DNA of 62,695 bases, from the NCBI GenBank assembly GCA_002197995.1, contig NGZR01000013.1, positions 1 to 62,695 of the forward strand, given 5' to 3'. Below the pieces are notes generated by a model, which made no database searches, was not told the DNA's origin, and saw nothing but the letters and a program-made list of their open reading frames with translations. The translations under genes were made by a program, and so were the position numbers. Source of the stretch: Gaeumannomyces sp. JS-464 (lineage: Eukaryota > Ascomycota > Sordariomycetes > Magnaporthales > Magnaporthaceae). This document shows positions 1 through 62,695 of the stretch, one piece after another. Position 1 is the stretch's first letter; each line of letters begins with the position of its first letter.

Positions 1-559
1 CACGTACTGCACAGACCTACGTTCCACACACACCTCTTACACACGGACTTCCACGCACACACTACGTGACACACGACACACACGACTATACTACACCTAC
101 CTTACCCCGGCCACTGCCACTTTACTACTACTTTACACTTTTACACTTTACGTTACTACTACTTTTACTACGACACTACTACTACGACTTACGGACTACG
201 TACACACTACACACTACACATACACACTACACTACACTACAACACTGTTACACACCACACTACACACACTACACCCTTACACACGTTTACCCTACCTTGT
301 TTACTTGTCTACTTTTCACTTCTGTTACTTACGACTTACTACACTACTACTGCACCGTACGACACACACACTCTACACACTACTTTACGGCGTACCTTTT
401 ACTACACCACACCACTTACTTTACTGACACACTTTCTCGACTCTTTTTGACACTACACACTACTTTACCCTTTACTACACGGTTTACTTACTGTTTGACG
501 GTACACTACACCGACACTACGTACCTTTCACCTACCACACGCTACACACGCTTCCGCGG

Positions 560-945
560 CTTTACACTGTTACGACTGGACACACACTTTTACGCTTCTA
601 CACACGTACTCTTTACTTACACACACCTTCGACCTTTACGACACCTACTACCTTTCACCTCACTCTTTTTTCGTGTTTCTTCACGACTGTGACCTACCCT
701 ACACACACACACACCCCTGGTTTACCCTTTACGACACGCGCACCTCACACTACTACTTACCTTTTACGACTCTACCTACACGTACCCTCACTTTCCGCTT
801 TTACGTCGACGTACACTACACACACCTACACACCCTCTTACGACTACACACACACACCACGCACGACACCCCACCACTACACGTACTCACCCACGTTACA
901 CACGTACTTACACCTCACACCGACTACCACCACCCGGACCTTACC
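560..945 (-). CDS. GIY-YIG homing endonuclease ORF in cox1 intron (segment 1)
   Basis: Decoded - strand reads KKTGKSGVYRWVN, then LTGDTYVGSAV, then KRFSFYYST. This is the GIY...YIG-type nuclease core: the first tyrosine is in GVYRW, the second in TYVGSA, followed by the conserved Arg region. The frame ends near 590 in TSEETRKKMSES, a NUMOD3-like DNA-binding repeat, and then a stop. Such enzymes cut an intronless allele so that the intron can spread. The ORF is shorter than the usual 200-300 residues, and homopolymer errors break the frame, so its exact ends are uncertain. It may be a degenerate second copy beside the ORF upstream. Confidence 0.72.
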
Positions 946-999
946 CTGTTTTCTTTACACTACGCTACACCTGTTTACTCCTCACTACTGACACTACAC

Positions 1000-1860
1000 A
1001 CTTACCACACACGGACGTCGTACCTTACCTTTTACTTTTACCCACTCTTTACGACTGGTTTGTTACACACTACACTTTGCACGGTACGGACACACACCAC
1101 TACGCACACACCGTTACCACTACACTACTCTACACTGGCGACTTTACACACTACACGACCACCTGTCCGCTACTACTCACACACTACACACACTTTTACT
1201 TTGTACACGCGCTTACACACTACTACACACACTACACACTACACCCACGACTGACACACTACACACACTACTACGGCACGTACACGGACACCTACCTACG
1301 CTACCTACGACTCTACCACTTACACGACTTTGGTTTTACACACCTACTCACACTACACACTGTTGTTCTACACTGCTACCTACCTTGTTCTACACGACTT
1401 TCTCACTCCACTACACTACTACACACTACGTTACACCTTACACTGTTGTTACACACCACTACTTTACTTACACACTACACCGTACACACACCTCTACCGT
1501 GCTTTACGTTTTACACGTACTACGACACGGCACTACACACTACACGACACCTTACTTCACACCTACGCTACGGCTACGTTGACACTGACCCCACCACTAC
1601 TACCACTGTTACCACTCTACACACCTTTCTCACCACCACTACACCCCCTTTTTGCTTCTTGGTACACCTTTACACGACACTACACTACTCTACTTCTTAC
1701 ACACGGACTCCTGACACCTACACACCCTTACACCACTACTTTACTACTTTACTACACTCTTCACGGACTCTTTACTTACTCCTGACTTACTCACTTACTT
1801 ACTTGTTACCCTACTTGTTACGACACCACTTACTTACTTACTCGTTACTTTACTCTTACC
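1000..1860 (-). CDS. GIY-YIG endonuclease-like ORF, C-terminal part clear (segment 1)
   Basis: The part decoded with confidence is ALEQHLLDSLKPNLNVDL near 1,270-1,380, preceded by YGWEILEQV. This is the conserved C-terminal half of the GIY-YIG domain, where the glutamate of LEQ is catalytic in family members. It continues with a stretch of the NUMOD type (SKDGKIKV, YSYEDKQLA) near 960-1,050. The N-terminal GIY motif should lie near 1,500-1,650 but I could not read it cleanly, so it may be frameshifted or decayed. The ORF follows cox1 exon 1 directly, as intron ORFs read in phase with the exon often do. Confidence 0.6.
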
Positions 1861-1980
1861 CACGTTACTCACCCTTACCCTACCACCTCTGACGACTACT
1901 TACCACGACACGACACAACGGCACCACACGACACACTTGCGACTTTACACAACTTACACACTACTACACACTTACTTTCG

Positions 1981-2243
1981 ACCCACTACACACGACACTC
2001 ACTTACACTACTTGCGTGGGCACGTTACTTACTACCTACTTGTACTACACTTGACTTACTCTGCTACTGTACTTGTACCACCCTGGCCCACCTTACACTT
2101 CCACTTCTACACTTACACTACCACGACACACCGCTGTACCCTACACTACACACCCACGACACACACTACACTGCGACACTACTTACACACTACTCACACG
2201 TTCCTACTACTCTTTACGCGTTTGTCGACTACACACACTCACT
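1981..2243 (-). CDS. cox1: cox1 exon 1, cytochrome c oxidase subunit 1 N-terminus (segment 1)
   Basis: The decoded frame starts at an ATG (2,243) and gives LSTNAKDIGTWYLIF, then SGLLGTAFSVLIRM, LSGPGVQYIADNQLY and ITAHAILMI. This is the conserved N-terminus of COX1, with the first transmembrane helix and the start of the second. COX1 is the catalytic haem-copper subunit of complex IV in the inner mitochondrial membrane. TGA reads as Trp or another residue in this copy. The exon breaks after the MIFFMV region (better read in segment 2), which is a common group I insertion area. Only about 70 codons are present here; the rest lies beyond the left edge. Confidence 0.9.
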
Positions 2244-2279
2244 CTTTCTTTTCACACACTACGACACACTTGACACGAC

Positions 2280-2405
2280 TACGTACACTACACACGTACT
2301 TTTTTTCACTTACTACTGACGTTTCTTGCTTCGCACCACTACTTACTCACCCACTCACTTACTTACGACACTCACTTTTCGACGGCCACCTGCTACCTAC
2401 TCGTT
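2280..2405 (-). other. Short Ser/Asn-rich reading stretch upstream of cox1
   Basis: Decoded text gives SSSGLENDSNNDGDN between trnC and cox1. It recurs in segments 2 (about 32,940-33,060) and 3. I found no start or family match. It could be an upstream leader, an ORF relic or chance. Confidence 0.25.
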
Positions 2406-2591
2406 ACACTTGTACACACACACACACACACACGACACACACTACGTACACCACACTTTACACTTCACTTACACTACTGACTTTACACTTACACACTTAC
2501 ACACTTACGCACTACTACACTGTACACTACACGTACGCTTGACTACCTCGTGTACACACTACCGACACGCACCGACTGCTACCACACACAC

Positions 2592-2683
2592 GACTTACTG
2601 GACGGACACTCGACACCCTCTTACCTTACACGACTTTGCACACTCACACACGTGTACACACCCACTTTACCTTCACTACACTC
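2592..2683 (-). tRNA. trnC: tRNA, probable Cys(GCA) (segment 1)
   Basis: Decoded length is about 70 nt. The acceptor strands GATTATG and CATAATC pair perfectly. The D-arm reads GTAAATGGTTTAC, and the T-arm GAGG-TTCGATT-CCTC is canonical. The anticodon loop reads TTGCAAA, giving GCA. The anticodon stem (TTTGA/TCTTA) has two T-T mismatches in every pass, so the identity is less sure than the tRNA call. The gene precedes cox1 on the same strand. Confidence 0.7.
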
Positions 2684-3029
2684 TTACACACGTACCACGG
2701 TCTTTACACTTTACTACTTACCCTTTGTTTCCTGTACTTCACTTACTACTTCTTTACTTGGGTCTACTACGCTACTTTTACTGTGTACGCACCTTACACT
2801 TCTACTACCTACTTTACCCACCTTACGTACCCGCACACTTACCTACACTACGTACTACACACTACTACTACACTTACACACGTTACACTACACTGACCCT
2901 ACCACACCACTTACGTACCTTCTGTACCTTCTTCTACCTACTGACACACACTGTCTACCTTCTTACTTTCACTACGTACGCCACGCACCTACACACACCA
3001 ACACGACCACACACACACACGCACACTAC

Positions 3030-3665
3030 GACTTTACTTTTTTCGTTGACTGGTACACACCCGGACTCTCCACACACACGGCGCTTTACGTACGGTGGTT
3101 TTGGTTTACACTTTCACGGTTCACACCGGGTTCACGGACCCTACCACTGTCCTCCTACCCTCTGGTACGTTCTCACACGCACCCACTTTCACCCCCCTTT
3201 TACCCACTACACGGACCCTGGCACTTGGGACACACACCCACTGGTACTACGGTGGTTGTTGTGGTTGTGGCTGCTGACTCCACTTACACTACACTACTAC
3301 GTTACACACCACCCTACACACTACTACACTTACTCCACCACACGACTACACACTTACTACTACACACACTTACTTACGTACACACACTCACCACACGTTA
3401 CACACGTTACACCACTACTCCGCTACACCTTTTCACGGTACTACTTACTAACACACGCTACTTACACTACTGACCCCGGTGTTTCCGCACTGACCACACC
3501 TACTTACTTGCACACCTGCTACACACTTCACTCACGGACACACTACCGTTACTCGGACACACACACACTGCTGCTACGGACCTACGGCGTCACACTGTAC
3601 CTGTCTACTACACACTTTACTTACTTACTACTTCTACACACACTTTCACTGACACACACACACAC
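3030..3665 (-). CDS. Unrecognised membrane-anchored proline-rich ORF (segment 1)
   Basis: I do not recognise this ORF. Comparing the three passes gives, in order: a polar N-terminal part with TLTPSPSSIF, FPDEFSS and NNSCHAETPGHINSF; a segment PEKLADMLTLTCD; one strongly hydrophobic helix (NNFIIILSCGIIILLGG); and a proline-rich tail with QPQPQQPPIP, FPMPGPYGK, ELPEVGGHVGPEP and EIKPKPPTKAPFGDP. It probably ends at PSTKK followed by TAA. A Gly-codon run of three G in two of the three passes decides that stop. The length is about 150 codons. It lies between cox2 and trnC on the main coding strand. The base composition of the tail, richer in C and G, differs from its neighbours. It might be a plasmid-derived or lineage-specific mitochondrial ORF. 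Confidence 0.5.
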
Positions 3666-3846
3666 TTTTTTTTGACCACGTACTTCTACACACACACTGA
3701 CGTTGACGACACTTTACGTACTACACTACACGCACACACTGTTTACACACTACACGACACTTACTACACGGCGGGGTGGCTACACTACGCTTACTTTACC
3801 ACGACTACTACTCCACTCTACTCCACTTCGTGCTACCTACACTACA

Positions 3847-3902
3847 CGCACGCGTACGCACGCGTACGCACGCGTACGCACGCGTACTTACGTACGCACG
3901 CG
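3847..3902. repeat. 8-bp tandem repeat GCAGCGTA (segment 1)
   Basis: Raw text 'cgcacgcgta' in series decodes to about four head-to-tail GCAGCGTA units, followed by GTATTAGTAGCAG. The same array is at 31,405-31,465 and 38,928-38,985. It lies upstream of the proline-rich ORF. Confidence 0.85.
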
Positions 3903-3904
3903 TA

Positions 3905-4755
3905 CTTACGTACGCGACACGTACACGCACCGCACTACACACACGTACACGTACACGCTCTCTCTACCTACTACACACACACACTACCACTTGCCGTACG
4001 GGCACACACGACTACTTACACGCTACGACTACTTTACTACGTACACTTTACTGCCCCCCACTTCACCTCCGACACGGACACCACACTTACGTGACTTACT
4101 CACACCACACTCACTACTACACTACTACACTCTCCTTACGACACTACACGTTCTCTTACACTACTACACTACTACTCTTACACTACACTACTACCTTACA
4201 CACACTACTTTTACACTTCTACTACCTACACTACTACACAACACCACGACTACTCTACTACCTACGACGTACTACTACGACACTGACTACTTTACTTACT
4301 TCCTACTTCACTACCGACACGTACCGCTACCGACACACTACACGCGTACCTTCGTACTACACACGCACCAACACACTACACTACTACCACTTCTACGCTT
4401 TGTTACCTACCTTACACACTTACTCGACCCACTACACTACACGACCCTCTACACCACCTTACCACACACCTACTTACACTACCACACGTACCGCTACCAC
4501 ACACTACACGCACCTGTGCTTCGCTACGACCCGACTACTTACTTTTTACTTACCTACTTACACACTGTCACCTGTTACTACCTTACTACTTACTTTACTG
4601 TACGCGACACGCTACCTGCTTTCTTCACTACCTACACGTACCGCTTCGCTACGACACGTACCACGCACCGACACGTACACGCACCTCTACTTACCCACTT
4701 ACCCACTTACACACCACTACACTACTACTTACCACCTCACTACACTACTTTCTTA
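3905..4755. other. Spacer after cox2 with GC-rich palindromes
   Basis: No gene was recognised here. Several inverted motifs of the type GTACGCTACGAA and CTTCGCTAG stand out in AT-rich DNA near 4,315-4,375, 4,490-4,520 and 4,605-4,685. Mobile GC-rich hairpins of this kind are common in fungal mitochondrial spacers. Two short ATG-started stretches (4,261-4,310 and 4,381-4,440) look like chance. Confidence 0.6.
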
Positions 4756-4762
4756 CTTTACC

Positions 4763-4886
4763 CTACTTGTTCCACTTACACTCACGCTCACACACCTTTT
4801 CTACACTGACACACCTGACTTCTACTACACTACGGCACTACGACACCTGTGCACACACTTCCACCACGACTTTCACCTACCACTTG
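4763..4886 (-). CDS. cox2: cox2 last exon, Cu(A) site end and C-terminus (segment 1)
   Basis: The decoded frame reads QCSEICG, then HSSMPII, ESVSLEKF and ELWLMEQ, with a TAG stop at 4,763. CSEIC and the following His are copper ligands of the binuclear Cu(A) centre that accepts electrons from cytochrome c. The exon begins right at the Q codon, after a group I intron. TGA encodes Trp in the ELW part. The HSSM part is one codon off in this copy because of a run-length error. Length and ending agree with other fungal COX2 proteins. Confidence 0.93.
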
Positions 4887-7502
4887 CACACACTCTACCT
4901 TTACTACACTACACACTGACACACTTTACACTACCACTTACTCTACACACACACACACGACAGACGTACACACCCACACACCCCTACTGACACGTACCTA
5001 CCTTACTTTGACACACACACTCTACCTTTTCTTTACTACACGACACACACTACACTACACTTTTTACTACTACTTTTACCCACTCTCTTACGACCGCACG
5101 ACTTTACACACGTTTTTCTACTCCACACTCTTACTACTTTACACACGTACTCACACACGTACTTTACACCACGTACTCCACTACACTACCTACTCACACA
5201 CGTCTTTTTGTCACACACGACGGACTTTTCTCCTTTTACCTGACGACTACGCTTTACTTTTTTTTCACGACGCTTGCGCCTCCTGTTTACACGTACACGG
5301 TTCCACCCTCCTGACTGACACTACACGTACTACCTTTTTTACTTCACTCCACTACACTTACACACCCTACTACTTTTCACACACACCCCTCACGGCACAC
5401 ACGTACTGTACGACACTACTTTACCACTACACGACACACTTGTGACACACCACCTTTTCCACTTTACTTACTGTACTTTGGTTACACGGTGTCCCTTTTT
5501 ACTACACTTACACACCCTACACTCCTCTTACACACTACTTCACACTACCACACGACGGTTACACTGACACTCACACACGCTTACGACGTACCGGTTACTC
5601 TACCGTTACTTACACCTACACCGTGTTACCCTTTTTTACACTTTCTACACTTCACACCTGGACACTACCTCCTTCGGGTTCCTACACTACTACACACGCT
5701 TCCTTTCTTTCTGTTTGCACTTACCACTTACACTACACACTCTTTACACACGACACACTACTTACCTACGTCACACGCACGTGGGACACTACGGACTACG
5801 CTTACACTACACCACACGACACCTTACTTACACGGTACGGGTACACTTTACGACACTCTACCACTACCTTTTTACCTACGTTTCACGTACTGGACTTTTT
5901 ACACTACCTCTTTTTACACCTCTACTTCTTGACTTTACGCACTGACTACACTACACACGACGTACCTACCACTGTACACGGTCACTACACACCACTACTA
6001 CCACGCACTCACCCTTTTGACACGACTCCTGCGCTACACCACACCTCTTACGACGTACTTCACACGTTACACACTTCTTTACCTTACACTACACACTGAC
6101 TACTTGTTCTACACGACTTACACGGCGTCTTGACTACACCACACACCTTACTTACCTACTCTACACTTTACTACACACTTACTTACACCTTACACACACG
6201 CCTTTACGCCCGTCTTTACTACTACGTACACACGGTACACGACACTTTTCCACGCTACACACGGGTACGCTTACCGCACCCCTTTACACACGTACGTACA
6301 CTCCACACTCTACCGTCTTACGTACGACTTACGACTGACACCCTACCGTACTTTCTGCCCCGTGTCTTTACTGTACTACACCACTACTACTACCACCCTG
6401 ACGACACCCTTTACTACTGCACGACTTTACCCTGTTACACTTCACTCTACACGCTACACTCACACGACTCCACTACGGACTCTTGACTACCACGGACACG
6501 ACTCCACACTTCACACCACCCTTTACACCCTTTACACTACACTTCTTTTACACTTTCGACTTCACGTACACCACGACTACACACTTTTGACTTTACACTA
6601 CACACCTTTACTTGACTACACCCACACACTACACGTACGTGGGTACGCTTGCGCACCACCTACTTACACTACTGTTCCACTTGCTACACGGACCTCACGA
6701 CGCTACTTTGCTGCACGACGTTACACTTGACTCTACACTCGACACTACTTACGACTCTACACTTACACGCTACCTACCACGACACCCTGACCCCTACCAC
6801 CGTTTACTTACACACACTGTACGTGTTTACTTACACACTACCACTCTACCTTCTTTTACCGACTGCACACACTACTACACTACGTGTCTACCACGACACA
6901 CGACCACTGTGCTTTGCTTTTACTTACTGACTACACGTACTACACACACTTTACTTTACACACTACCTACGTTTACGCACACACCTACTTGTACGACACT
7001 TCCCTACACACACACTACACTTACGTTACCTTTACGCTTACGCACTACACGCACCACACCTACACTACTACACTTTACTTTACACACACACACACACTGA
7101 CACCACGTACTTACCTTTGTACCACCGGACTGCTCACTACTTCTTCTGCACCCCTTTCGGGTGGGGGCTGACCTACTACTCTTACACGCACTTACTTACT
7201 TACTACACTACACCACCTACACCCACCGTTTACGTCGACTGACACCTGTACTACCCTTGTACACGTTACTACCACTGGTACCTTGGCTGCGGACTTGCCC
7301 ACTTGACACTTACTACTACTCTTGACTTTTACCCACTACCCACCGACGTCACTTACTCTGTGCCGCACACGACTGTGTTACCCACCTCTTGTTTGGTTAC
7401 ACGACTACTCTTTACGGGGTTTCCCGCACACTTTGACTGGTTTTTACACTTACTACGGTTCACCTACTACACTCACTGGCCACACTGTACACACACTACA
7501 CG
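4886..7502 (-). mobile_element. cox2 group I intron 3 (segment 1)
   Basis: The intron sits between GVFYG and QCSEICG. The catalytic core is complete on the - strand: P-type AATTGCGGGAAACCCC (7,410-7,436), Q-type ATGGGCAATCCGCAGCC (7,283-7,303), R-type TTCATCGACTAAACG (7,228-7,247) and S-type AAGATATAGTC (7,168-7,183). This is the layout of a subgroup IB-like intron. A GIY-YIG ORF follows the core. The 3' part from 5,400 to 4,886 has protein-like stretches (DTVKYFDTLNIRLDRKTLN) that I could not assign. Confidence 0.88.
5400..6700 (-). CDS. GIY-YIG homing endonuclease in cox2 intron 3 (segment 1)
   Basis: A polar N-terminal part reads SVTESKLKELLKVKGVELD and then SLDELTGKSAYKG. The nuclease core has VYM (GIY position), GQKYVGSSNLLRRRLEYY (YIG and catalytic Arg), FKLEIYKLDSNKFV-like text and LEQYHLLSKEFNLNTLRV with the metal-binding Glu. 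A C-terminal DNA-binding half follows: VYDLTCSTLYYH, ELKRVLKIH, DNRTLSFDSLTSCIEYLRG (NUMOD1-like) and a last GKVFHNFLCKY. The total of about 300 codons is normal for the family. The enzyme would cut intronless cox2. Frameshifts come only from run-length noise. Confidence 0.87.
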
Positions 7503-7701
7503 ACCCACTACACACACACACCACTTCTCTACTTACACTACACAACACCACGACTACCTTGACTTTACACTCTTCCTGCACTACGGCACTCACCACTTTG
7601 ACTACCCTACACGACACGGGCACACGCACACACTGACGTGTACTACACCCCACGACTGTTACTACACTACACACTCTTACCACTGTGTTACGTTCTGGTA
7701 C
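7502..7701 (-). CDS. cox2: cox2 exon 3 (segment 1)
   Basis: The decoded frame gives ELTHVRFIITSG, IHSFACPSLGIKCDAY and AGRLNQVSVVINRE, ending in the VFYG region. It covers the beta-barrel part of COX2, including the first copper-ligand His (IHSF) and the Asp/Arg region that docks cytochrome c. CDAYPGRLNQ wording is typical of basidiomycete COX2. It is flanked by introns on both sides. Confidence 0.93.
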
Positions 7702-10091
7702 ACACTACACCACTGTACTTACACTTCTCTTTTACCCACTTACGACACGACTTACTACTACCTACACACACTACTACACACTCTTACGCTTTTACGACTA
7801 CTACACGCTGACGACTACTACACCGCCCCGTTTCCGACTACACCTTTTTTTTCCTGTCACACCGTACACACTCTACTCGACTCTACTTACTACACGACAC
7901 TTTACACTTTCGTTACACGTACACTACACACGCTACCGTTTACGACTTACACGTACACACTTACTGACACACACACTTTTACACTACGACTTACACACCT
8001 CTTCCTTTACTTCACTTGCGCACACGCGACCACGTTTTTACTTTTCACTACACTCTTACTTACACCCCCTCTGGACGTTACACACTGGTCCTTACTCTTT
8101 CACTTACACTTTACGCGACCTACTACCACTCACACTCTTTACACACTTACTCACACGTTTTACCCCTCGACACTTTTACTGACTTGTCACACACACACTT
8201 TACACTGACTTTTACACACACTTACTCCACTACACACTTTCTCTACCTCTACACACCTGCACCTTTACTTACTCTGACACCTACGTTACCACACTTTTCC
8301 ACCACGCCTACGGTACTGACGACTTACACTTTGACACTTACGTCTCTCACTCACCGACGACACTGTTGACGTTACTTTGGACACTACTTACACCTGACAC
8401 CTTGACACACCCACGACTACCACTGACGTTGACACGACTTTACTTTACCACGACACACACACACACACACACCCTTCACCCTGACTGTACACACTCCACG
8501 CTACACTCACTTCACCCACTCTGGACACTACGTTACTACTTACGCGACCCTCACGGTCTACACGACACACGGTACTTACTACTTCGGGACACTGCTGTCT
8601 TTACACGCTCTCTGACTACACCCTACACACTTCACACACGACACGCTCTTACTACCTACGACACTACGTTACACACACGTCCTTTTTCGGTACACTACTG
8701 CTCCTTTCGTACGCACTCACTCACTACACTTACTCTCTTTTCACACGACACGACTACACTCACGCACTACCTTCTGACGACACACTTACACACGGGTACT
8801 TTGTCACACACTGACTCACTTACCCTTTACCCACTTTGACTTTACTACGTACTTTACCCCTTACACACACCACTACACGCACTCTTTACCCTACACTTTA
8901 CCACTACTCCGTCCTACTACTCCCCTACACGTGACTTTCTACACTTTCACTTTACGACACGCCCTACTACTCCTTTTTACTGTACGTCCACACTTACACA
9001 CACTTCACGCACGACACACCTCTTCACACCCTGTTGGACCGTGTGGACACTCTTTACTACGACTTGACGACTACGACACACACCACACCCCTCTGCACTC
9101 GGTGACACACCCTGTGACCACACACTCACCGGGCTTACTACTTACGACTGGTTTGGGACTCTACCACCACACGACCGCGCTACTACTTTTCTTACCACCC
9201 TACACACGCACTACACTACACACACACACGACACTACTGTCGCACTTTTCTTTTGTTACGACACTACGGTACTACACTACTACCACTTACACTCCTACTA
9301 CACTACTTACTCACTGTTTTACACTCTTTTTTTACCCACTGACGACGACACTACTACTTACACCTCACCTTTTACGGTACTACACGCTACACACCACTAC
9401 ACGCCTCGTTTCCGACTTTTTACTACACTTTACTCTTGTTTACTTACTGCTTCCTACACTACTGCTTCACTACCTACACGACAACCACACGCACTACCTT
9501 CACTACGTACACACCACTACGCTTACCGACTACGCCACTACACTACACAACACGACTCACACACACGTATACCACACTACGGCTACTTACGACGTACCAC
9601 CCTTACCACCCACTACTACTCTACCCCTCACCTTTCTGACGGTACACTCGACGGTTTTACACCCTACACTACTACTGGCGACGTACGCCGTCTACCTCGT
9701 TGCTCTTTTACCACCACTTACGTTTACACTTGACTCTTTTGCTTACGTCCTTGCCTTGCACACACGCACTTCGTTGCACACACTACTTACACGACACGTC
9801 ACTGCTACACGTTACACGTCACACGTCACACGCTACACGACTACCTTCACACCTACACGACGGTGACTTTACGACTCCGCGACACCACTCCACTTTTACA
9901 CCTTTCACTTACACACTCTTACGACACTTGTTACCTACTACCCACACGTGACTTACGTTCGGCCCCTTTCCTTACCCCTTTTACGGTTACACACACGGTT
10001 ACGTACTTCTACACGCTCTTACGGACCTTACCCCGGACACTTTGACCTACCTTGACGACGCGACTTTACACGCTTGCTTACACGGCTTTTT
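7701..10091 (-). mobile_element. cox2 intron 2, LAGLIDADG-bearing (segment 1)
   Basis: It separates EVDNRV from ELTHVRF. Just inside the 5' end, the decoded text contains AATTCCGGGGTAAGTCC and then ACTAATCACTTGG, which resemble group I pairing segments, but I did not resolve a full core. Almost the whole element is taken by one LAGLIDADG ORF. A spacer of about 300 bases with TATCGGAAACGGGG (7,810-7,830) precedes the 3' splice site. Confidence 0.75.
7995..9730 (-). CDS. LAGLIDADG endonuclease in cox2 intron 2 (segment 1)
   Basis: It starts with VKEQRVDGYSPYIR, a leader seen in many fungal intron ORFs. The first LAGLIDADG helix is LVTGFTDAEGCFL, with GLHKKDIGLLNEI, HLGDIGRICKLGK, DHFDKYPLISQK and LNLGLSESLKTAFPN. 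The second helix is EWLAGFTSGEGFF, with QITQHSRDE, NHKIRG and KDKDHLTPEGLIRL, and the frame ends MNKGRV plus stop. Each helix ends in an acidic residue that would bind the catalytic metal. This is a full two-motif monomeric enzyme of about 400 codons. A palindrome TTGCGCAA lies inside the frame just before MNKGRV. Confidence 0.87.
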
Positions 10092-10272
10092 TACCTCTAC
10101 TTACTCCACCTTCTACACCACTTCTTACACTGTTCCTTCCTCTACACACTCTGACCTCACGGTACCTACTACTACACGACACTCACACACTTCTACCACA
10201 CTTCACTTACTCTGACACTTTACACACACACTCACGGGTACCTGGTACACGACTCACGTACTCACTTGGTGC
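10091..10272 (-). CDS. cox2: cox2 exon 2 (segment 1)
   Basis: The decoded frame reads HQWYWSYQYPDF, LNSDNE, EFDSYIVPESDLE and GTLRMLEVDNRV. QWYWSYQY is the aromatic strip of COX2 that carries electrons from Cu(A) towards haem a. Both tryptophans of that motif are written TGA, which fixes the genetic code. The exon starts at the His codon, directly after an AT-rich intron end. Confidence 0.94.
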
Positions 10273-10506
10273 TACTACTACTACTACTTTTACACTTTTA
10301 CACACTCACACGACACCTTACTCACCACTGACGACTTACACGACTTGACACCTTACACTCTTCACGGCCTTACTTTACACACACACGCACACGTTCTACT
10401 TACTACTACTACCCCCTACTACACTTACTACTACTACACTCTACCACACCTGTGCGACACGCTACGCTCGTTTTACCTCACCTTCCTTACACACACTTTA
10501 CCACGT

Positions 10507-11720
10507 TACACACGACTCTACCACGGTCTACCCTTTGTTCACTTCCTTCTTTTACTTACGTCTACACTTTGACGCTACACCCCTACGGACACGTCACGAC
10601 TGTTTTTTCTCTTTCACTTACACTTCACGCCGCCTGGCACTCACACTTACTTACACACGTCTTCACACGCTTTACTACCCTTTACACTTCCGTGTTCACC
10701 GGACACACACACTGGTACTACACTCTTTTCACACACACTTACTTACGACGACACACTCTACCTACCCTTCACACACGTTACACGACTTGACACGACTCTA
10801 CCTACGCACCTGTCTTTACACCTTCACCCGCACACCCACACGTACTTCTTTACACTTTTTCTACGGACGTACCTCTACTCTCTACGACGTGCTGACGTTA
10901 CACACGCACACACTACACTACACGGTACACCTTGACTACTCCTACCTACGGTTACGACGGCTGACCTTGACACTACTACTTTACACGACACACACAACAC
11001 GCTTCACCCTGACGCTACACACTCCACGCTACACTCACCTGGGGACTTACTTGACTTTCTCACTCTTCTACCTACACACGGTCTACGCACACCACGGTAC
11101 CTGTTGCTGGGACACGACCTTTTTCACACGTCTTCTGTTACGACCCTACACACTTCACTACGACTGCTCTACACTACTTTACCACACTACTCTTGACTAC
11201 ACCCTTTTACACCTTACACGACTGTTCTTTACCGTACCACACGTTTTTGACACCACGCACGACTTTACACTACACTTCACACACGTCTGCTCTTTTCTTA
11301 CGTTTTACACGTGGACACACTTTTTCACACACTGACGTTACTACACTACTCTTCACTACTCACTCTACACACGACACCGCACCTCTACACACACGCCACC
11401 ACCACACTTTTTGGTACGCACTCGACCTACTACACACTCCGACTTCCCCCACACACACACTACTCTGACACTACCTTTTTACACACACGCTCACACGACT
11501 CTTTTTTGTGTACACCTCACACTTTGGACACACACTACGGTCTTACTTCTGTACACCCACTACACCGCGACTTCCGACGGACTTTACCTACACACTACAC
11601 TCACTACACACGGACACCCCTCTGCACTCTGTACACTCCTGTACACCACACACTGACACGGACTCACACTACTTCGACGTCTTGACGGACTTCGACGCTC
11701 GACACTTCCCCGTACACGTT
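10507..11720 (-). CDS. LAGLIDADG endonuclease, downstream ORF of cox2 intron 1 (segment 1)
   Basis: The ORF begins with SSNPQDSNIDPSFV. The first helix is TGFTDAEGSFMI, followed by SRYGYRIRPIFQ, LHKKDLELLKSIQ, GGIGF, ALRVRSLDDMKIL-type text and KFPLKTKKRADY. Then come VRKEH, NLGLTEDLKKSFP and VARPLVEDEKSIIP. The second helix is WLAGFSSGEACF, with LTQHSRD, KIIPFFREHGIK and EKKHLTS. It ends GMNKGRPVDL plus stop. It has two complete motifs and normal length (about 320-350 codons). In the second motif the acidic residue is Glu and is kept, so the active site looks intact. Confidence 0.88.
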
Positions 11721-50950: not shown

Positions 50951-51004
50951 TGCTACTCCTACACCACTACACACTGACTACTGTACACTACCGGACTACG
51001 CGAC

Positions 51005-51827: not shown

Positions 51828-51910
51828 CTTTACCTTTACCTTTTCTTTTCTTTTACTTTTACTTTTCTTTACTTTACCTTTACCTTTACCTTTACCTTTA
51901 CCTTTACCTT
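51828..51910. repeat. TAAAG tandem repeat (segment 3 copy)
   Basis: Third copy of the pentanucleotide run, similar in length to segment 1. Confidence 0.85.
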
Positions 51911-52066
51911 ACACTTACACTTTACCTTTACGTTTTACTCACTCTTCTCTTTACGACACACGACTGGACTTTACCTTTACTACACACACTTACTACTACA
52001 CACTGGGTTTTTCTGCTGCGTACCTTCGTACTGCACGCGCTACCTGCGTACACGCGCACACTACAC

Positions 52067-52288
52067 TTACTTTACTTGTCACTACTACTTTTGACTACTA
52101 CACACACGTACCGTGACTACGACACACTACACCCGACACCACACACTCTACGGTACACGACACACTACTTTACGACTGCCACTGTACACACCACGTACAC
52201 TACGTTACTTACTTGCACACACGTACACACACGTTACCTTCACTTACACACACACTACACACACGGGACACCTACACTTGACGGCACT
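52067..52288 (-). CDS. atp8: atp8 (segment 3 copy)
   Basis: MPQLVP start at 52,288 and TAA at 52,067. This is the copy with real upstream sequence attached. Confidence 0.92.
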
Positions 52289-53350
52289 TTTTTTTTACTA
52301 CTACTACGACTGACACTACCTTTTTACCGTACTTACACTGTTACACCACACTACTTACCACACTACGACGACTACACTACTACTTTACCACGCGACACGC
52401 ACACCGACACGCGCGCACGCACACACACACTGACACACACTGACACCACGTACACACTTACTTACCACTTTTTCTTTACTTACTACTCTGTTTTCACTTT
52501 CTTACACTACACTTTTACACTTGTTACTTACACGACACACTGACACACACTTACTTACTACTTTTCACTTTTCTTACACTACACTTTTACACTTACTTAC
52601 TTTACCTACTACTTACACTACTTTTACGTACTACACGACTTTTACTACCTTACACTCCACTTACTACACTACACCACACTTTGCTCCACTGTGCTTTTAC
52701 GACTACTTCTACTACGCCTCTTGACTCACGTTACTTTTTACACACTACACACTACTTGCGACACCACGTACTACACCGCTTACACGTTACGTGTTTACCG
52801 ACACGTACGTACACGCACTGCTTACCTTCACTACCGACACGTACCGCTTCGCTACGACACGTACACGCACGCACCTACTTACTGACACTACACGCGCTAC
52901 GCTACACACGCACACGCTACACACGCTACACGACACTGTACGCTTTGCTTCCACTTGCTGTACACACTACACACCTACTACACACTTACACACACACACC
53001 ACACACCACACTACTTACTACCTTACCTACACACACCACACACACTTTACACTACACACACTTACCCTTGTGCTTCTACACACCACACTACTACACGTTA
53101 CCTACTACACGACACACACACTCCACTACTACTACACTACTACCTACACACTACTTACGGACACTACACCACGTACGTACTTTACACACCTACGTACACT
53201 ACGCTTTACCTTGACTTACACGTACACACACCTTTTTCTTCCTTCCTGCGACACGCACCCGTACGGTGGACGGACGACACGCACTCCACACTGCTACACA
53301 CACGGTCTTCGTGACTGCTACCGCACTTCACACACACGGTCCGTACGTAC
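52288..53350. other. Spacer between the free-standing LAGLIDADG ORF and atp8
   Basis: AT-rich with palindromic GC-rich patches: GTAAGCATGCTTAC-like at 52,800-52,830, GCGCTAGC at 52,890-52,920 and a GC-rich patch at 53,255-53,345. From 52,518 it differs from segments 1 and 2, which folded back at that point. One short coding-like stretch is listed separately. Confidence 0.6.
52600..52790 (-). CDS. Short unrecognised ORF stretch upstream of atp8
   Basis: The decoded - strand stays open through FAIFIVKITDQEAIEYLKA (the last residue followed by HGANCYNGLSIKSYTKS). The composition is protein-like and polar, unlike the spacer around it. No start, stop or family could be fixed. It may be the remains of an intron ORF or a small lineage-specific protein. 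Confidence 0.35.
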
Positions 53351-54650
53351 TGACACGCACACGGCTACTTTACTTTACACTACGTCTTGCTTTACTTCAC
53401 TTGCGCACACGCGACCACGACTTTGACTACGCACCGTACTTTGACTTTACACCCCGTCTACGACGTTACACGTGACTCTTTACCTACGCCACTACACTAC
53501 TCCGCCACCTTTACCACTCACACTCTTTACACACTCTACACTGCTTTTACCTACCGACACGTACCTACACACACTCCTACTGTTTGTCACACACACACGG
53601 GTACTACACTTACTTTGACTGACACTACTCACGTACACGACCTTCTACCACTCTACTACACTCACACCTGTACTTCTCCACACACCCACTCACTTTTTAC
53701 ACGACACACACTGACTGTTCCACCACCCACACACGTACACTTACACTACACACACTTTTCTACGTACACTGCTCTACCTCTACTTACTGTTGACGTACAC
53801 TTTTACACACTTCTACACACCTTGCACCTACACACTCCTACCCTTACTGACTTTGGACGACTGGTGACTACTTCCACACCTGACACACACACGACCCCAC
53901 TCACCCTGACTGTACACACACCCCGCCACTTCACTTCTGGACTACACGGACACCTTTTACACGTTTTCCACCTACGTGACCCTACGAACACCACGGACAC
54001 TACACTACTCGGGACACACACGCGGCTGGCACACACTCCTCACCTACACGACCCTACACACTTTACACACTACGCTTTTACTACGCTACCACACTACGAC
54101 TTGTACACCCCTTCACTTACGTCACACACTACACGCTTTTTGTTTACACACTACACTTCACACACACCCTTACCTACACACTACACACCGGTACGTCTGC
54201 TACACTTTTACTACGCTTGCGCACGTACACTTACACTTTACTACACTTACTCACACACACTGACGACCACACACACTTACTACGCCACACTTGACTTTTT
54301 ACGACTGTTACCACACTACTACGTTACTACACCTACGACACGCCCCGTGTTTACGACTACTACACCCTACTTCCACCCTACACGTACACACTTTTACTAC
54401 GCCTCCACGTACTACGGTACACACTCTTTCTCACTGTACTACGACGACTTGACACACACTACTTGGTACTACACTTTCTCTGCGCACACCTACCACACAC
54501 CGTGTACTTACGACACTTTTTTCTGCGCACGCTACCACTGTACACGACTACACACACCTACCCTTCCTACGCCCGTACGGGCTACACTCACACCGACACT
54601 CCTGTTACCACACACTCACTGGACTTTACACCTGGACTACGTACGACCTT
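53350..54650 (-). CDS. Free-standing LAGLIDADG ORF downstream of nad5
   Basis: It opens with IQLNPWFVTGFVD, where the first helix should continue AEGSF. Instead the decoded text has TAGCCCTACGGGCTA, a palindrome, before GGTAGTTTTATC. It continues ISIHEKD-like text, LEAIKFYLGGIG, KHGASSYNYIVTS, ILSHFDNYPLITAQA and NEGLQSIVAIKA, then LGLSEDLPAAFPDI, VENLKVPYPEWMAGFTSGDGSF (second helix, read in pieces), LEFKITQHNR, NYFGCGTSFS, DGFGEYSVDY, IIIPFFDKH and ASKDHLT. It ends MNKARLLNK plus stop. It lies after the nad5 stop with no recognisable intron core or exon on its far side. It looks like an intron ORF that outlived its intron, probably inactive because motif 1 is disrupted. Confidence 0.78.
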
Positions 54651-54776
54651 TACCTGTACCTACTACACTTACCGACGTACCCTCTACGACTACACACACC
54701 GCTTTTTGGTGTGTGCGACACGCTACCCCCGACACCTACCTGCTACCACTGCTTTCTCTTACACACCGTACCTACG

Positions 54777-56331
54777 TTACACACGCTTTTCACGACTGGA
54801 CCGACTTACACTCCTTACCTCGACGTTACACGCTCTCCTTTGTCACGCACACACACACACTGACACACACACCACTTACGCACACTACACTACACACACC
54901 CACACACTTGACACTTCACGTTTGTACGGCTACTACCACTTACACACGTCACTACTTACACACACGTTACACACACCACGTACACACTCCTACTTACACA
55001 CTACTACTACACACGCACTACACTTTGTACACCTACCACCTTGTGTTTACACACGACTGACACACGCTTTTTACCTTACACACTACACACGTACGCCCCA
55101 CCCTCACACGACCCACTACACGGTCCTACTTACACTTCTACTACCTTCCTTTACTCTACACACACCCTTACGTACGTCTGTCCACCCTACACACTGTACA
55201 CTACCTACACGCTTGTACACTACTACTTTACTTGTACACACACACACTTCCACCTACACACACACTCTTTGACTTACACACACACACACCCACACTACTT
55301 TTACTACACCCTACACTTTACGACGACACTTTACACACACTTACACTACACGACTTTTCACGCTACACACACTTCACGACTACACACACACACTACGCTA
55401 CTACACTACCTACACACACTACTACGTACACACACACTTACACACGGCACACTACACTTTACACACACACGCGTACGGACACCACGCACACACTTCACGT
55501 ACTCTACTCACTTACTCTCACTGACGTACGGACTGGACTACACACTACTACCTACTTGTACCACACACACACACTCCACGTACCCTACACACACCCACTA
55601 CACACACACTACTCTTTACGTACACTACTACACCACACACACACACACACTACGACACACACTACGCTACACTACACGACCTACACACGGTACACACCTT
55701 ACACGACACACTACTCACCCTTCACTGCGCACACTACTACACTTACCTTTTACACTACTCACTACGACACTTTACTTACGGTCCACTTACGGACTTTGTT
55801 ACACGACACTGTTACACGTACTACACACACCTTTTACCTGACACTACTACACACGTACGTACACACTACTTGCACCCTACTGACCTGCGACTACACCACT
55901 ACTACCTGCACACCACCTACCTACTACACGACACTACTTGACCACACACTGCGACTTCTACACTACTACACACTCTTTACCTGTACACACACTCCTGTCA
56001 CTGACACACGGGACACACGCTACCTACACACCTTACACGCTACGCGACTTACACCACTACACCACGACACTACTGTTACACACGGTACACACTACTCTAC
56101 ACTCACACCCACTACTTTTCTGACACACTCTTGACTTACTCACTTACACCTGCACTGACACTACACCTGCACCCACGCACCCTACACGACACTACACACT
56201 ACACTCCTTTACTACACACACGCACTGACTTTACCTACACTGACACACTACACCGCTACACACTTACTACACGACACGACTACACACCCTACTACGCACA
56301 CTACACCCACTCACTACCCTACACTTGCACA
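54777..56331 (-). CDS. nad5: nad5 last exon, NADH dehydrogenase subunit 5
   Basis: NAD5 is the largest membrane subunit of complex I and part of its proton-pumping arm. The exon starts at QLGMMVIAIGL and runs through SSYNLALFHLVNHAFYKGLL, LFLGAGAV, HAVNDNQDFRKYGG, YLPLTYSVMLIASLSLVAFP, FMTGFYSKDFILES, VAVYVIAVIGAIF, YSVKVLYLTFLTNPNGP, YIAHEGDIFLSLPL, TKDIFMVLGTGF, IFIHPTHEIMID, TEFAVPTLFKLLPF, GYNIFGFFNQRLLVEFFYN, LHLGGQTTKVLDKGS, VELIGPYGLEVG and KSFSSLNTSVVTNYALYIL. It ends TKESLTRVRINRPSEKL plus TAA at 54,777. Helix order and C-terminal length fit fungal NAD5. TGA is Trp. It is the longest uninterrupted exon in the window. Confidence 0.95.
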
Positions 56332-56429
56332 CACACTTACCTACTCACTTACACTGACGACCGTACACTTTGGACCCACTTTCTTTACTTACGTCTTTAC
56401 TACTTTTTCTCACTCTACTCTTTACACAC

Positions 56430-57310
56430 TTTACACCTCACTTCACTACACACTTTTACCACACCACTCACTCACTTTTTTTACCTTACGTCTACACCTA
56501 CACGTACACACTTGTTTTACACTACACACTTACACCTCTTTCACTTTTTTCTGTTCTTACACACGGACTACCTTACACTACACACACACTACACTACTAC
56601 TACTTACACGTTACACACTACACTTCACGTCTTTCTACTACGACTACACCACTACTTACACACTGCTTCTACTTTTACGGACCTACGACACACTACTCCA
56701 CCTCTTTCCACCCACTACTACTACACTGACACTTACGACGGTTCCACACTACACGTACTTTACTTTTTTTGACGACTACTACCTACACTACACACACACC
56801 TTGACCCCGACACGACTTCACCTACTACACTACTACTTGACACCCGTCACCTACTCACACTACACACACCCACCTTACGTCACCCCACTCACTTACACAC
56901 ACGTACACGACTTACTTTGCACTACCTTTACACTTCTACTACTTACACACTTTACACCACCACACACGCTTACTTCACTTTGTACACTACACCGCGTACG
57001 GACTTTCTACACTACACACTCCACTTTACCACTCACTTTACTTACACTGCTACTTACACACCCGCTCTACTTCTTACACTTTACTTTACACTGCACTACT
57101 GCACTACTCACTTTGACACACTTTGTTTACCACGACTCCACCCACTACTCTACTGTTGGACTTACACTACTACACACACCTTTTACTCCCTGGCACTCCA
57201 CTACGTTACTTTCACACACCTACTTACTACTCCACTTTTACGACTACACTACACACACGTACACCCACTCTCCACTCTACTTACACTCCACGCTACACTC
57301 ACCTGTCTAC
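56430..57310 (-). CDS. LAGLIDADG endonuclease C of the nad5 composite intron
   Basis: First helix WLAGLIDGDGYFYY at about 57,245-57,290. Then NSLEITMDARD, LIQHRYGGSVN, ALNKLRIE, ALINDVNGFIRN and LKYANNLTFNDGW. The second helix is LSGFIDSDGSIYY, with ESSGQVFISISQKN, LFGTSNSLYMVE, ISSPKIEAF, RKTELFNLIYYF and IKYPLRTEKM. This is a complete two-motif enzyme of about 240 codons, from the subfamily with GGS...KLRSG-like loops. Confidence 0.88.
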
Positions 57311-57959
57311 ACACTGCACACGACTCTTCTACACTCTACTACACACTTTACTTGTACGTACGGCTACCTACACACCTGCTACGTACACTACTACTGTACG
57401 ACCACTACTTCCTACCTACACACTTTACACACACACTACTACTCTACTTACCTTTTTTTACTACACACACGGTACACACACACACTTGGTTTTACTTTTA
57501 CACACACTTTTGTTGTTACACACACACTACACCACGGTTTTGCTACTTACACACTTACACTTACACTTTACTGACCACTACGCTTGCGCTACCGCACCAC
57601 CACTTACACTACACACGACCTACACTACTCACACACCGTACTGGCCTCTGACGACTTCCTACCTACACCTTACCTACACTACACTGCTCACACTTTTCAC
57701 TCTTACTTACGCCCACGACCACTACACTGTACCACGGTGTACACCCTTACTACACTGGTACGACTGACACTTACACACACACACCTTGACACACTTACCA
57801 CACTGACTTACTACACACACTACACTCACTGACGCTTTGGTTACTCTGCGACACTTGGCTACTACGTACTTTTACCACTTACGCTTCTGTGTACCTTTCT
57901 ACACTACTTACTACACACCACTACACTACACCTTTTTACACTACTTTTTTCACTACACT

Positions 57960-58830
57960 TTGTACTTTTTTCGACCTGACTCCTGGTTTTACCCTCACTA
58001 CTACACTTTTTTACACTCACGACTCACACTCTTTTTCCTTTACTTTACCACTTACACACGGACTACTCTTTTACACACACTACACTTGTCTACTACACTG
58101 CTCACACACTTTCTGTTTTCTGTACACACTACGACACTACTTGACACACACGCTTGTCTACGACACTCACGTTACTTTCACACTTCTACACCTGACACTA
58201 CTACTACTTACACTACACACGGACTCTACACTACACACTACTTTGTTTTTTTTGTGTTACCACCTACACTTACTACTTGACTCTGACTTTTTCACTTACT
58301 ACACTACTACGACACCCACTCCGCACTCGACTACACACTCCACCTACACACCCACTCCACTTACTACACTACACGTTACACACGGTTTACGACTGTTTCA
58401 CACACCTTTACTACCCACTACTACACTTTACCACACCCTTACTCTACACTTGTACACCACTCTTTGACACGGACTTTCTACACTTACACGCCACTTACAC
58501 CACCTGTTACACTTTACACTTACACCCTTGTTTACTGTGCTACACTTTACTACTTTACACACCCTGACACGACTACTCTCTTTACACTACGACTCCACCC
58601 ACACTTTACTGCTTTACACACTTACTACACACGTGCTACACTGTGTCTTCCTTTTCACTTACCACACTTTTACACACTTACGCACTACACCCTTTTTTAC
58701 GACTACCACACACACACTTTACCCACTCACCCACTCTACTTACGTCCTGACTACACTCACTTCACTTACACACACCCTGTGACTGTTACTACCCTTACCA
58801 CGGTTTGTGTGGTTACCACTACACGTTCTT
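57960..58830 (-). CDS. LAGLIDADG endonuclease B of the nad5 composite intron
   Basis: First helix EWLSGLIDGDGKFFVSKKG, then LKIVMEKEDTLALY, KHKLGGSIKEISSG, YKLAHKQGLIKLT, VNGLIRNPSKMLQL, YGIKF, and second helix YNGWFSGFIDADGSIYY. It continues EKSDQ, NKYLLDPL and IQLEFEITDSRQAF. Both Asp residues of the helices are kept. It is related to ORF C in layout but clearly different in sequence, so the two were acquired separately or diverged long ago. Confidence 0.87.
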
Positions 58831-58869
58831 TTTTGTACCACTTACGTACACTTACTACGACTTTACTTT

Positions 58870-59990
58870 ACTTCTTTTTTTACTTTGTTGCGCACACGCG
58901 ACCTGACTTTACACTTTGTTTACACTTGACTTCACACACGCCTTCTGACACGTACACGACTGGTCTTTACTACTTACACTTCTGCACGCACCGACGTACA
59001 CACTCACTACACACACTCTACACTGACCTTACGACACCCTTTTACACACGGACTTTACTTACACACACACACACGGACACTACACTTTTACGTACTACAC
59101 ACTACTCCTGACACACTTTACGTACACCACACTACACACACTCCCCACGCCTCTGGTGACACCTTACACCACTACACCGTCCACCACGTTACACACTACA
59201 CTTACACACACACTTCTTTTACACTACACACTCACGTACTCTCTACGTACTGTTGTGTACACTTTTACACACTACCTACACGCCTACCGCCTGTTGACAC
59301 TTACTTGGTTACACTGACTACTGTACACACACCACTCCACTCACCCACTCTACCACACACCCACGACTACCTCACTGTGGACTCTACTACGTCTTCACAC
59401 TTTACGGTGTACACTACGTTTGACGGCCTTACACGACACGGACACTTACTACTTTGGACACACACCTACACTTTTACACTTCTTGTTACACACCCACTTA
59501 CTTACACGACCTGGCTTTTACACGACTACACTACTTGTGTACTACACACCCCTTTTTTTGTTACACACTGCTCTTTTTTTTACACTACTACTTCACACAC
59601 TACACTTTACACACTACTTTTACTACACTCACGACTACACTTTACTACGCTTGCGCACGTACACTTACACTGGACTACACTTGTTACACACACTGACTCA
59701 CACTACACTACACCTTCTACTACTCTTCACTTGACACTTACCACACTACTACGTCACACCACTACCCCACTCTTTTCTTACTACTACACACTTTTACCCT
59801 ACCACTTACACACACACGTTACCACTACTTTTTTCTACACCACACTTCTTTACTCTTTTACACGTGTACACTTTTACTCTTACACACACGACTACGGCTG
59901 ACTACTACTACACTACACTACACTTACGGTCTGACCCTTTTTGTACTACTTTACTTACACACACACACGCCTTCACGCACTCTGTACACA
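58870..59990 (-). CDS. LAGLIDADG endonuclease A of the nad5 composite intron
   Basis: First helix LTGFTDAEGFFNKYT, then LHLKDKELLEKIC, NVGKIYIRKDGY, MKDIEVII, DHFNNYPLITAQAIN, DYKIFKLFEYI, KKEHLTKKGLYTILS, KASLNNGLTRIKISL, FPNIIPSLRPQTITPK, and second helix HEWISGFVDGEGCFT. It continues FKITQHTRDTD, AGDFIVTKFQD, KIIPFF and GSKSLDF, then KDHLTSEGFESI. TTGCGCAA palindromes sit inside the frame at about 59,650 and 58,890, where relatives have ITQK and SGMN. The intron-proximal part after MSQL (REYITHSNIYSSIKLY) may be an in-frame leader. Confidence 0.87.
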
Positions 59991-60194
59991 CCCCTGTTAC
60001 CACTACACTACGGGTTTACACTACTACTGACTTACACGTACGACTACGGGTGGACACACTACTACTTTACACTTTGGGACTACACGTACGTTACTTACAC
60101 TCACTTTTTTACTACGACACACACCCACTACGACACACACGTACACACTCGCACTACTACGTTTGACTGCTTGACACTACTACTTGGACACTGA

Positions 60195-60520
60195 CGTACA
60201 CTACTACTTCTCGACGCCACACTTGACCTCACTACGTACGACACTACACGCTACTACACTTTTTTACACTACTCTTGTTGGACACTACACTCCACACTAC
60301 ACGACGACACTACACACACACCGGTACGTACACTACGCTCCTACACTCACTACACACCACACACACTTACACTACCACGTACGACACCTACTACTTCTAC
60401 ACTACACACGGACGACTGTACCGTACTTACACTACACACTACTACCACCCTGCTGTACACCACTTGTACGCACGCGTGTACTTACACACGCACGACACAC
60501 CGGGACGTACGGCACACGTG
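60195..60520 (-). CDS. nad5: nad5 middle exon
   Basis: It reads LPTPVSALIHAATM, VTAGVYLLIR, TSPLLEYSSTVLIL, LWLGAITTVF, GLFQQDIKK and IIAYSTMSQL. It contains the Lys- and His-bearing helices of the NAD5 proton channel (ALIHAATMVTAG). It is flanked by introns on both sides. The upstream exons with the N-terminus lie beyond the right edge. Confidence 0.95.
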
Positions 60521-60659
60521 TTGACTTTTCACTTACTACTACCACACTTACACTGTACCTACACTACGACACACACACACACTACCACACTACACCTTTG
60601 GTTACTTGGTCGGACCTACTACTCTTCACACTACACACTTTACTTTACTTACACTACAC

Positions 60660-61545
60660 GTTTACGTTACACACACACTCTGATACTACACTTACACACC
60701 ACTCACTCACGTACACACTGTTTTTTACTTTTTTACCTACACTGCACTACACACTTTTTACACTCACTCTACTTACTACACGACTACTTACACTTTCTTA
60801 CGTTTTTACACTGGACACACGTTACTTTACACACTACTTTACACGTACTACTTTACACTTTACCCACACACTTACACCTACCTGTACTTACTACACCCAC
60901 TTACTACACCTTTTACACCACTGACGTTACTACTACACCCACTTACACTTACACTTGCTACACACTTACGTACCTACACACTTCTACTACTCACTCTTTC
61001 TGTGACACGCTACCACTATCTTACCACGCTTACCTACTACTTTTTACCCTGTTTTTTTACGACTGTTACACACACCTGACGACACGTACACACACCACAC
61101 CTTCACGCACTCTGTACACACACCCACGCTACACTCACACGCACTTACCTTACGACGTACACTTGTACGGTTGGACTTGACACGACTACTCTTTACTACT
61201 TTTCTTTACTACACACTACTTACTTACACACTTTCTACCTCACTACACTACTACACACTTGACTTCACACTTTACTACTTTACGTACACACTACTTTCCA
61301 CTTACACTACTTTTACACTTACACTTTTACACTACTACCCTTCTTTACTTTCTACACCTCTACACACACTGACTGACGTTTTACTTCACTTTTACTCTTG
61401 TACACACGACTACCACGACTCCGACACTCCTACACTTCTTTTTTACTACTACACACTACACTACTCTGACGCACTCTACCACCTACGACCTGTGTACACT
61501 TTACACACCTCTACACGTACCCCTCTTACTTTACCACACTCACAC
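60660..61545 (-). CDS. LAGLIDADG endonuclease D between R and S of the nad5 intron
   Basis: First helix LGFSEGDGSLIVNKR, then FIITQSSVDAQILFYIK, KELGFGSVSLQDK, THHFRVRNKEGILKL and IKILMEIFTKYKLN. Second helix NAWLAGFTDAE, then GCFTSQFL-like text, SKKTGKNIV, YVASQKDDIEFSTN, QLINGYITHVKSY, GYNTVVNLGKLN, YLNNFPLKTKK and RWLKIYALVKNKK. The first helix uses Glu-Gly-Asp and the second Asp-Ala-Glu, both with metal-binding acids. About 240 codons, complete. The ORF starts only just inside the R element, so it probably begins upstream in the core. Confidence 0.88.
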
Positions 61546-61944
61546 ACGACTCCACTCTCCTTCACCTACACACTCCTACACACACTCACTCACTTTACAC
61601 ACCTTACTCACTTTACTTTTTACTTGCTTCACCGTGTACGTCTCTGACGGACACCCTTCTGCTTTACCGGCTGCACTACACGTTTCCACGCGGACTTGTC
61701 CTTCTTCTTGGACTTTTTCCGACACACTTCACTTGACTTGACACCACGTGGACCCACACGACGCTTACTACACCACGGACTACTTCCCGCACTACTACGT
61801 GACACGTTTACACGGACGACGCCCTACTCCTTTTTGACTTTGTTGCTTACACTTGCTTACTACACGACGTTTTTACCACTACTACTTACTTACTTACTTT
61901 ACTACACGACTTACTCACTTCACTACACTACTTACTGACTCGGT

Positions 61945-62695
61945 ACACTCTTACTTACTCTACACTACTGGCACACACACGGCGTTGTTTACTCACTTGT
62001 TTACACTTTACTTTACACACCCTACACTTTACTACACACGCACTTTCACGGTACTACACTACTGCGACTTGACACCTACGACACACTACTTACACTTTAC
62101 TCCACTACCTTACGTTTACCTACACCACTTACACTACCGTCACCTTTACTACGCGCCGTCTGGACTTACGTTCGTTTACTTTACTACGTACGCTTTACAC
62201 TACTCACACACGTTTTTCTCTACACTACTACTCACACTTACGTTTTACGTACCTTCCTCTTACGTACACACACTTACTCTGTACCACTACACTTTACGTA
62301 CCTACCCACTTACGTACACACACTACACCCACTCTCCCACTACACTTCACGTGACGCTACACGGCACACTTGGACGTTACACTACACACTCTTTACACTA
62401 CTTACTCACGGTACACACACCTTTTACTACTACTTTACCCTCCTACTTTCTTTACTACTCACTACGTGACACTGTACACACTACACGTACACTACGCCGG
62501 CACACACCGTTTACGTTGACGACACTCACACTACCTGACACGACGGTTGTTGACCCTTTACACCTGTACTTACGGTCACACGGGCTACGGTTTACGACTG
62601 TTGTGCACACACTACGACACGCTACACTACCACTTACACACTTTTACACACTACACTTACACTACACTGTACACACACTTGTACGCACGCACACA
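61945..62695 (-). CDS. LAGLIDADG endonuclease E, 5' end beyond window
   Basis: It enters from the right edge. It reads QYWFSTKRLPAITYLHSLWY, KEIGGKYIKVLPDNIKDLL, TPIALAHWIMGDGYF (second-type helix, MGDG), CTDNFTKEEVLKLIDIL, EKNFDIKATINKRTNPDG, WRINVSKLSMDKL and VQSHIIPEMLYKLG. It ends KQR followed by a stop near 61,940. This is the family in which the helix is AHWIMGDG and the C-terminus reads PHIIPEMLYKLG, frequent in cox1 and nad5 introns. A T-run error at about 62,255 shifts the frame by one. Confidence 0.9.

Follow-up and report, generated by a model that had tools for sequence, protein, structure and literature searches.

Contigs of a Gaeumannomyces assembly in which C follows nearly every A are very likely an artefact of reads

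Results

The current study concerns a 62,695-nt stretch of DNA from Gaeumannomyces sp. JS-464 (contig NGZR01000013.1 of assembly GCA_002197995.1; hereafter, the window), in which nearly every A is followed by a C. The window is contig 5 (C5) of 34 in a 53.0-Mb assembly, which also holds clean DNA and contigs bearing the same change on the opposite strand. The extra C is very likely an artefact of reads, being neither damage to the text of the record nor a feature of the organism's biology.

A near-total dinucleotide rule and its decoding

The first-pass annotation had described AC as saturated and AA, AT and AG as nearly absent, which a count of all 16 dinucleotides bears out. Across the whole contig (1..62695, with the + strand as the reading direction), 16,320 of the 16,354 A's stand in AC, as compared with 21 in AA, 4 in AG and 8 in AT, and no 1-kb bin has an AC share below 98.5% of its A's. 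Four of the 33 escapes (A's without a following C) lie within the first 250 bases (13..241, +; positions 13, 88, 220 and 241; permutation p 5e-5), and such a cluster at the contig start is what thin coverage would give. For 21 of the 33 escapes, another copy of the site exists within the window, and the copy is an escape as well in just one of these 21 comparable cases (4240 with 39302). This variation between copies upholds the earlier view that no strict text substitution had occurred.

The raw window has a GC content of 47% and open frames reaching 20,897 codons (genetic code 4), yet it yielded no Rfam match at the gathering score and no transfer RNA (tRNA), and its first 8 kb gave no plasmid match. 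Removing the extra letter (AC to A) leaves 46,375 bases with 28.4% GC, in which the dinucleotide counts nearly match those of the reverse complement. When all 16 collapses of a dinucleotide to its first letter were compared, AC to A alone yielded tRNAs (three, all tRNA-Arg(acg)), whereas none came from the other 15 collapses, from the raw text or from one random removal of equally many C's. The decoded tRNA-Arg(acg) is located at 16013..16107 (-), with copies at 18976-19065 (+) and 51002-51097 (-). Across the window and sampled stretches of the other 19 changed contigs described below, none of the 20 changed sequences gave a tRNA as raw text, as opposed to 24 tRNAs after decoding (copies included, one type unclear), among them Tyr, Asn, Lys, Trp(tca), Gln, His, Met and Phe.

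Protein matches point the same way, as Pfam recognized four of six decoded window fragments. These comprise a cox2 fragment at 19573..19987 (+; COX2_TM, E 2.7e-22), with other-strand copies at 15145-15514 and 50262-50666; two LAGLIDADG endonuclease fragments at 21012..21408 (+; LAGLIDADG_1, E 2.9e-22) and 26586..27025 (+; LAGLIDADG_1, E 3e-18); and a COX1 fragment (E 9.4e-5) whose 21.9 bits fall under the Pfam cut-off of 34.8. Six raw frames at two of these matching places had no Pfam match. Both the proposed decoding rule and the warning that annotation of the raw text would be meaningless are well founded. The accompanying claim of coherent proteins survives only in part. It holds for COX2, for which the motif QCSEICG occurs three times in the decoded frames, and finds no such support for NAD5: the single ALIHAATM motif (60491..60491, -) is NAD5-like by virtue of the name that the first-pass annotation attached to it, the decoded piece (with stops as X) had no Pfam match, and long frames did not emerge. 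Frame length was itself dropped as support for the decoding, given that decoded text and random C removal each produced one frame of at least 150 amino acids (183 and 153 amino acids, respectively). Few long frames appear after decoding because residual deletions break them.

Clean and altered versions of a ribosomal locus

Within the assembly, clean and changed versions of a single ribosomal DNA (rDNA) locus coexist on C10, C16 and C19, and these serve as an internal control. C10 is clean, containing five exact clean small-subunit (SSU) motifs, and its units agree at 99.8-100% identity over the stretches compared. Placing a C after each A on the top strand of C10 reproduces C19 over ~6 kb (98.4% identity, 2 mismatches, 67 gaps), while the same operation on the bottom strand reproduces C16 over ~6 kb (98.2% identity, 2 mismatches, 54 gaps); unchanged C10 is only 76-78% identical to either. 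The SSU patterns likewise occur at their predicted places, with two sense A to AC versions on C16, one antisense version on C19 and the five clean versions on C10. The extra C comes after A regardless of the next base: in totals compared without site-by-site alignment, the expected and observed A contexts were 258 and 258 for AG, 212 and 211 for AT, 274 and 271 for AA, and 287 and 280 for AC on the top strand, and 326 and 323, 212 and 210, 483 and 450, and 240 and 235, respectively, on the bottom strand. The two changed rDNA texts are not mutual complements, and hence no single duplex can hold both. As a separate observation, the start of the 1.19-Mb scaffold C34, compared in expanded text, shares an exact 117-letter match with clean rDNA, and the rDNA array likely adjoins this scaffold.

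What still separates the changed copies from clean rDNA is mostly deletion within runs, with A-runs dropping whole AC units. Among runs of at least three letters, shortening affected 30 of 174 A-runs and 24 of 194 C-runs, compared with 10 of 174 T-runs and 4 of 194 G-runs (A+C versus G+T, p 3e-7), and C-runs were shortened far more often after an A (17/62) than elsewhere (7/132; p 3e-5). A similar asymmetry is seen in the window wherever one segment was read in opposite directions (see below). Between opposite passes, A/T runs were shorter 108 times when read as A and 18 times when read as T (C/G runs, 14 and 1), and the comparison of the third pass with the second gave 99 and 23 (C/G runs, 11 and 1). 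Between passes of the same direction, A-run gaps were even (45 and 45). On their simplest reading, these losses strongly indicate that the reads already contained the extra C as a letter, before consensus, when run lengths were lost. The corruption had also been regarded as reversible, but it is not fully so, since A-runs and C-runs have lost units.

Reading direction, fold-backs and contig classes

The copies initially noticed within the window do exist, but they are largely three readings, in alternating direction, of a single 12.9-kb mitochondrial segment. In the decoded self-comparison, pass 1 occupies 195..17577 (+; decoded 142-13071), pass 2 returns along the other strand of the same segment at 17577..35161 (+), and pass 3 repeats it in the direction of pass 1 at 35161..52521 (+), with fold axes near 17,580 and 35,161. 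The corresponding palindromes span 195-35180 and 17577-52521, their arms being 95.4-95.9% identical with differences that are mostly gaps, and 194-17601 matches 35235-52583 directly at 96.4%. A tail of ~10 kb of raw text (52522..62695, +) lies outside this zigzag, and part of it matches C26 in inverted orientation. Beyond the window, fold-backs were found in samples of C6, C11, C15 and C20 (arms 90.7-95.9%), such that they occur in 5 of 15 changed sequences versus 0 of 4 clean ones, the sample being small and drawn from contig starts. The change of A to AC continues through both arms of these folds, with 1, 2, 1 and 16 escapes in the C6, C11, C15 and C20 samples, respectively. As both arms carry it, the change belongs to the reading and is no property of a genomic strand. 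With its 16 escapes in 9 kb, C20:1-9000 stands apart from the 1 or 2 of the other three folded samples, and might reflect a thinner or mixed consensus.

All 34 contigs were sampled, most over their first 600 to 9,000 bases only. In the sampled stretches, ten contigs read A to AC, ten read T to GT, as the rule would appear from the opposite strand, and 13 are clean; C2 (144 kb) reads N over 1-9000 and hence belongs to none of the three classes. All nine contigs exceeding 1 Mb are in the clean class by their sampled stretches, although changes may occur elsewhere inside these large scaffolds, and the 20 changed contigs total 612,897 bases, or 1.2% of the assembly if changed throughout. The error had been taken as a property of the record. 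Instead, it tracks reading direction, is present on both strands within the assembly and has clean DNA alongside it. Among the changed contigs, two are ribosomal (C16 and C19), six carry decoded tRNAs (C3, C4, C5, C7, C15 and C17) and five overlap those that are tRNA-bearing or ribosomal (C14, C18, C20, C25 and C26). Strands were compared by applying both changes to each sequence, with nothing removed. In such text, C3 overlaps C20 at 95.2% over 3,681 columns and C4, inverted, at 96.3% over 564 columns, while C26 overlaps the window tail, inverted, at 95.6% over 781 columns, even though both read A to AC. These three overlaps between mitochondrial contigs require opposite reading directions.

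Several features of the remaining contigs were recorded as well. C9 (43,185 bases, viewed over 1-9000) was considered as a clean mitochondrial genome and dropped, its first 9 kb holding plasmid-type polymerases. It is clean and AT-rich, and its code-4 frames match DNA_pol_B_2 (E 1.6e-94), RNA_pol (E 1.4e-81) and GIY-YIG (E 1.7e-6), by which it looks like an element of the mitochondrial-plasmid type. The clean mitochondrial genome may be C2. COX1 matches with one stop each are found on two large nuclear scaffolds (C31:2170651-2170854 and C33:374184-374543) and are likely nuclear copies of mitochondrial DNA. The first 60 bases of C24 and C32 are nearly identical, and C24 is probably a second copy of a scaffold end. 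Contig sizes descend in the order 1, 10-19, 2, 20-29, 3, 30-34, 4-9, which is what a text sort of size-ranked names would give, and the window would rank 13th. TTAGGG telomeres are present in the assembly and, together with the LAGLIDADG fragments and a tRNA-Trp(tca) of mitochondrial code 4, point to a fungal source. A search for the telomere repeat in A to AC form, though poorly suited to simple repeats, found none.

Adapter-like loops at the folds

The letters of the SMRTbell adapter, a design described in PMC4678779, were confirmed against print. In the read orientation, adapter-like loops at five of six folds reached scores attained by no more than 5% of ~6,000 random places (4.9%, 0.3%, 4.7%, 3.6% and none, respectively), the share being 82% at the sixth, while the search in the opposite orientation gave nothing unusual at any of the six folds. 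These loops point moderately to PacBio signal-level calling as the source, PacBio being the likely platform. A and C are spectral neighbours on PacBio instruments, a point that the literature search did not confirm and that is not used as support.

Discussion

Based upon these features, a minority class of long reads very likely gained a C after nearly each A, in the reading direction and before consensus. Affected reads would be rare, such that only high-copy mitochondrial and ribosomal DNA would reach assembly depth, and each strand would assemble separately because the A to AC and T to GT texts do not overlap. Somewhat less surely, the platform may have been PacBio, with signal or base calling splitting an A pulse into A plus C in some wells, and the adapter, itself distorted, may have been missed, leaving the down-and-up passes joined as one zigzag read. 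Taken as a whole, the explanation of a minority read class with a C after A and with clean DNA beside it is, in our judgement, probable. We are evenly divided over the more specific proposal of a single-molecule failure mode, whereby the A signals of some wells are each divided into an A and a C at near-total penetrance. If true, such reads would pass quality control, defeat adapter finding and enter public genomes as phantom contigs of organelle and ribosomal DNA, with a separate set for each strand.

A number of points weigh against this explanation. It is based upon assembled contigs, and seven of the 20 changed contigs (C6, C8, C11, C13, C22, C27 and C28) were not placed as mitochondrial or ribosomal. 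C-runs that do not follow an A were not shortened significantly more often than G-runs (7/132 versus 4/194, p 0.13) and thus offer no independent sign of a disturbed C signal, while T-run gaps between passes of the same direction are uneven (7 and 20) without explanation. With regard to the platform, one of the six folds has no adapter signal, and only two of the six fall below 5% when compared with 300 shuffled adapters (sum p 0.01). An open adapter scan at a score threshold of 29 returned 19 places in the right orientation and 18 in the wrong one; just 2 of the 19 are located at folds, and the best score overall (39.6) is in the wrong orientation. Furthermore, although alternating passes of one insert are present, palindromes produced by multiple displacement would look the same, and fold-backs can also arise by amplification. 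Also to be counted here is an alternative that we regard as unlikely, in which a text edit (A to AC) was made to a read file, from one run or cell, ahead of correction and assembly, the instrument being fine. The rule is nearly context-free and in that sense script-like, and an altered read file would equally account for contigs in either orientation, for strands that stay separate and for clean contigs beside them, while correction errors could give the escapes. It does not by itself explain why fold-backs were confined to the changed sequences, bearing in mind the small sample at contig starts.

A failure of a nanopore caller on one class of reads, with the fold-backs derived from whole-genome amplification or joined strands, is quite improbable in our estimation. 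Strand-specific errors in the calling of telomere repeats do exist in nanopore reads, and they resemble the present case as systematic miscalls that depend on the strand read (PMC9414165). In those reads, a repeat is swapped for another of similar current, whereas in the present contigs every A gains a letter throughout the sequence, a context-free error that differs in kind. Palindromic mitochondrial nanopore reads with multiple inversions are reported to arise after multiple displacement amplification and to disturb assembly (PMC13265396), a likeness to the present zigzag; the available part of that account describes no base-specific insertion, and the adapter-like loops moderately favour SMRTbells. 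It is highly improbable that the finished record or its contigs were altered as text, which was the setting assumed by the first-pass annotation. The window alone does resemble a global substitution, but one rule in one orientation does not extend across all contigs, opposite-strand versions of one locus coexist, the extra C behaves as a real letter in the run-length losses, and escapes vary between copies. Scarcely credible is the notion that the DNA itself bears a C after each A, whether by editing or by expansion of an organelle genome. In its favour are only the consistency of the text and its restriction, as far as the contigs could be identified, to high-copy DNA; against it, nuclear rDNA is affected too, in two non-complementary versions, and the raw text lacks both tRNAs in the 20 changed sequences and Pfam matches in the six frames.

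Unrecognised SMRTbell adapters leave missed-adapter chimeras in PacBio reads. The present case is similar in that down-and-up passes are joined at folds, five of six of which have adapter-like letters, but missed adapters add no bases, and the loops here are too degraded to be identified singly. A second case was sought as well. The A to AC form of a universal SSU motif had no occurrence in a collection of genome contigs (both strand versions) or in a collection of viral contigs (one version), and two raw frames of the changed rDNA matched nothing in a protein collection at E 0.001. Such searches are weak, because the error would be visible in high-copy DNA only. The literature searched held no description of an A to AC error, which does not prove that none exists.

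Contigs of this kind reach public assemblies with a plausible raw GC content, huge open frames and no database match, and can pass for novel DNA. A per-contig count of the 16 dinucleotides exposes them at once and would be useful for quality control, and the presence of one locus in both clean and changed form allows a base-specific error of reads to be calibrated. The Gaeumannomyces assembly thus provides a case in which a minority read class has separated strand by strand during assembly.

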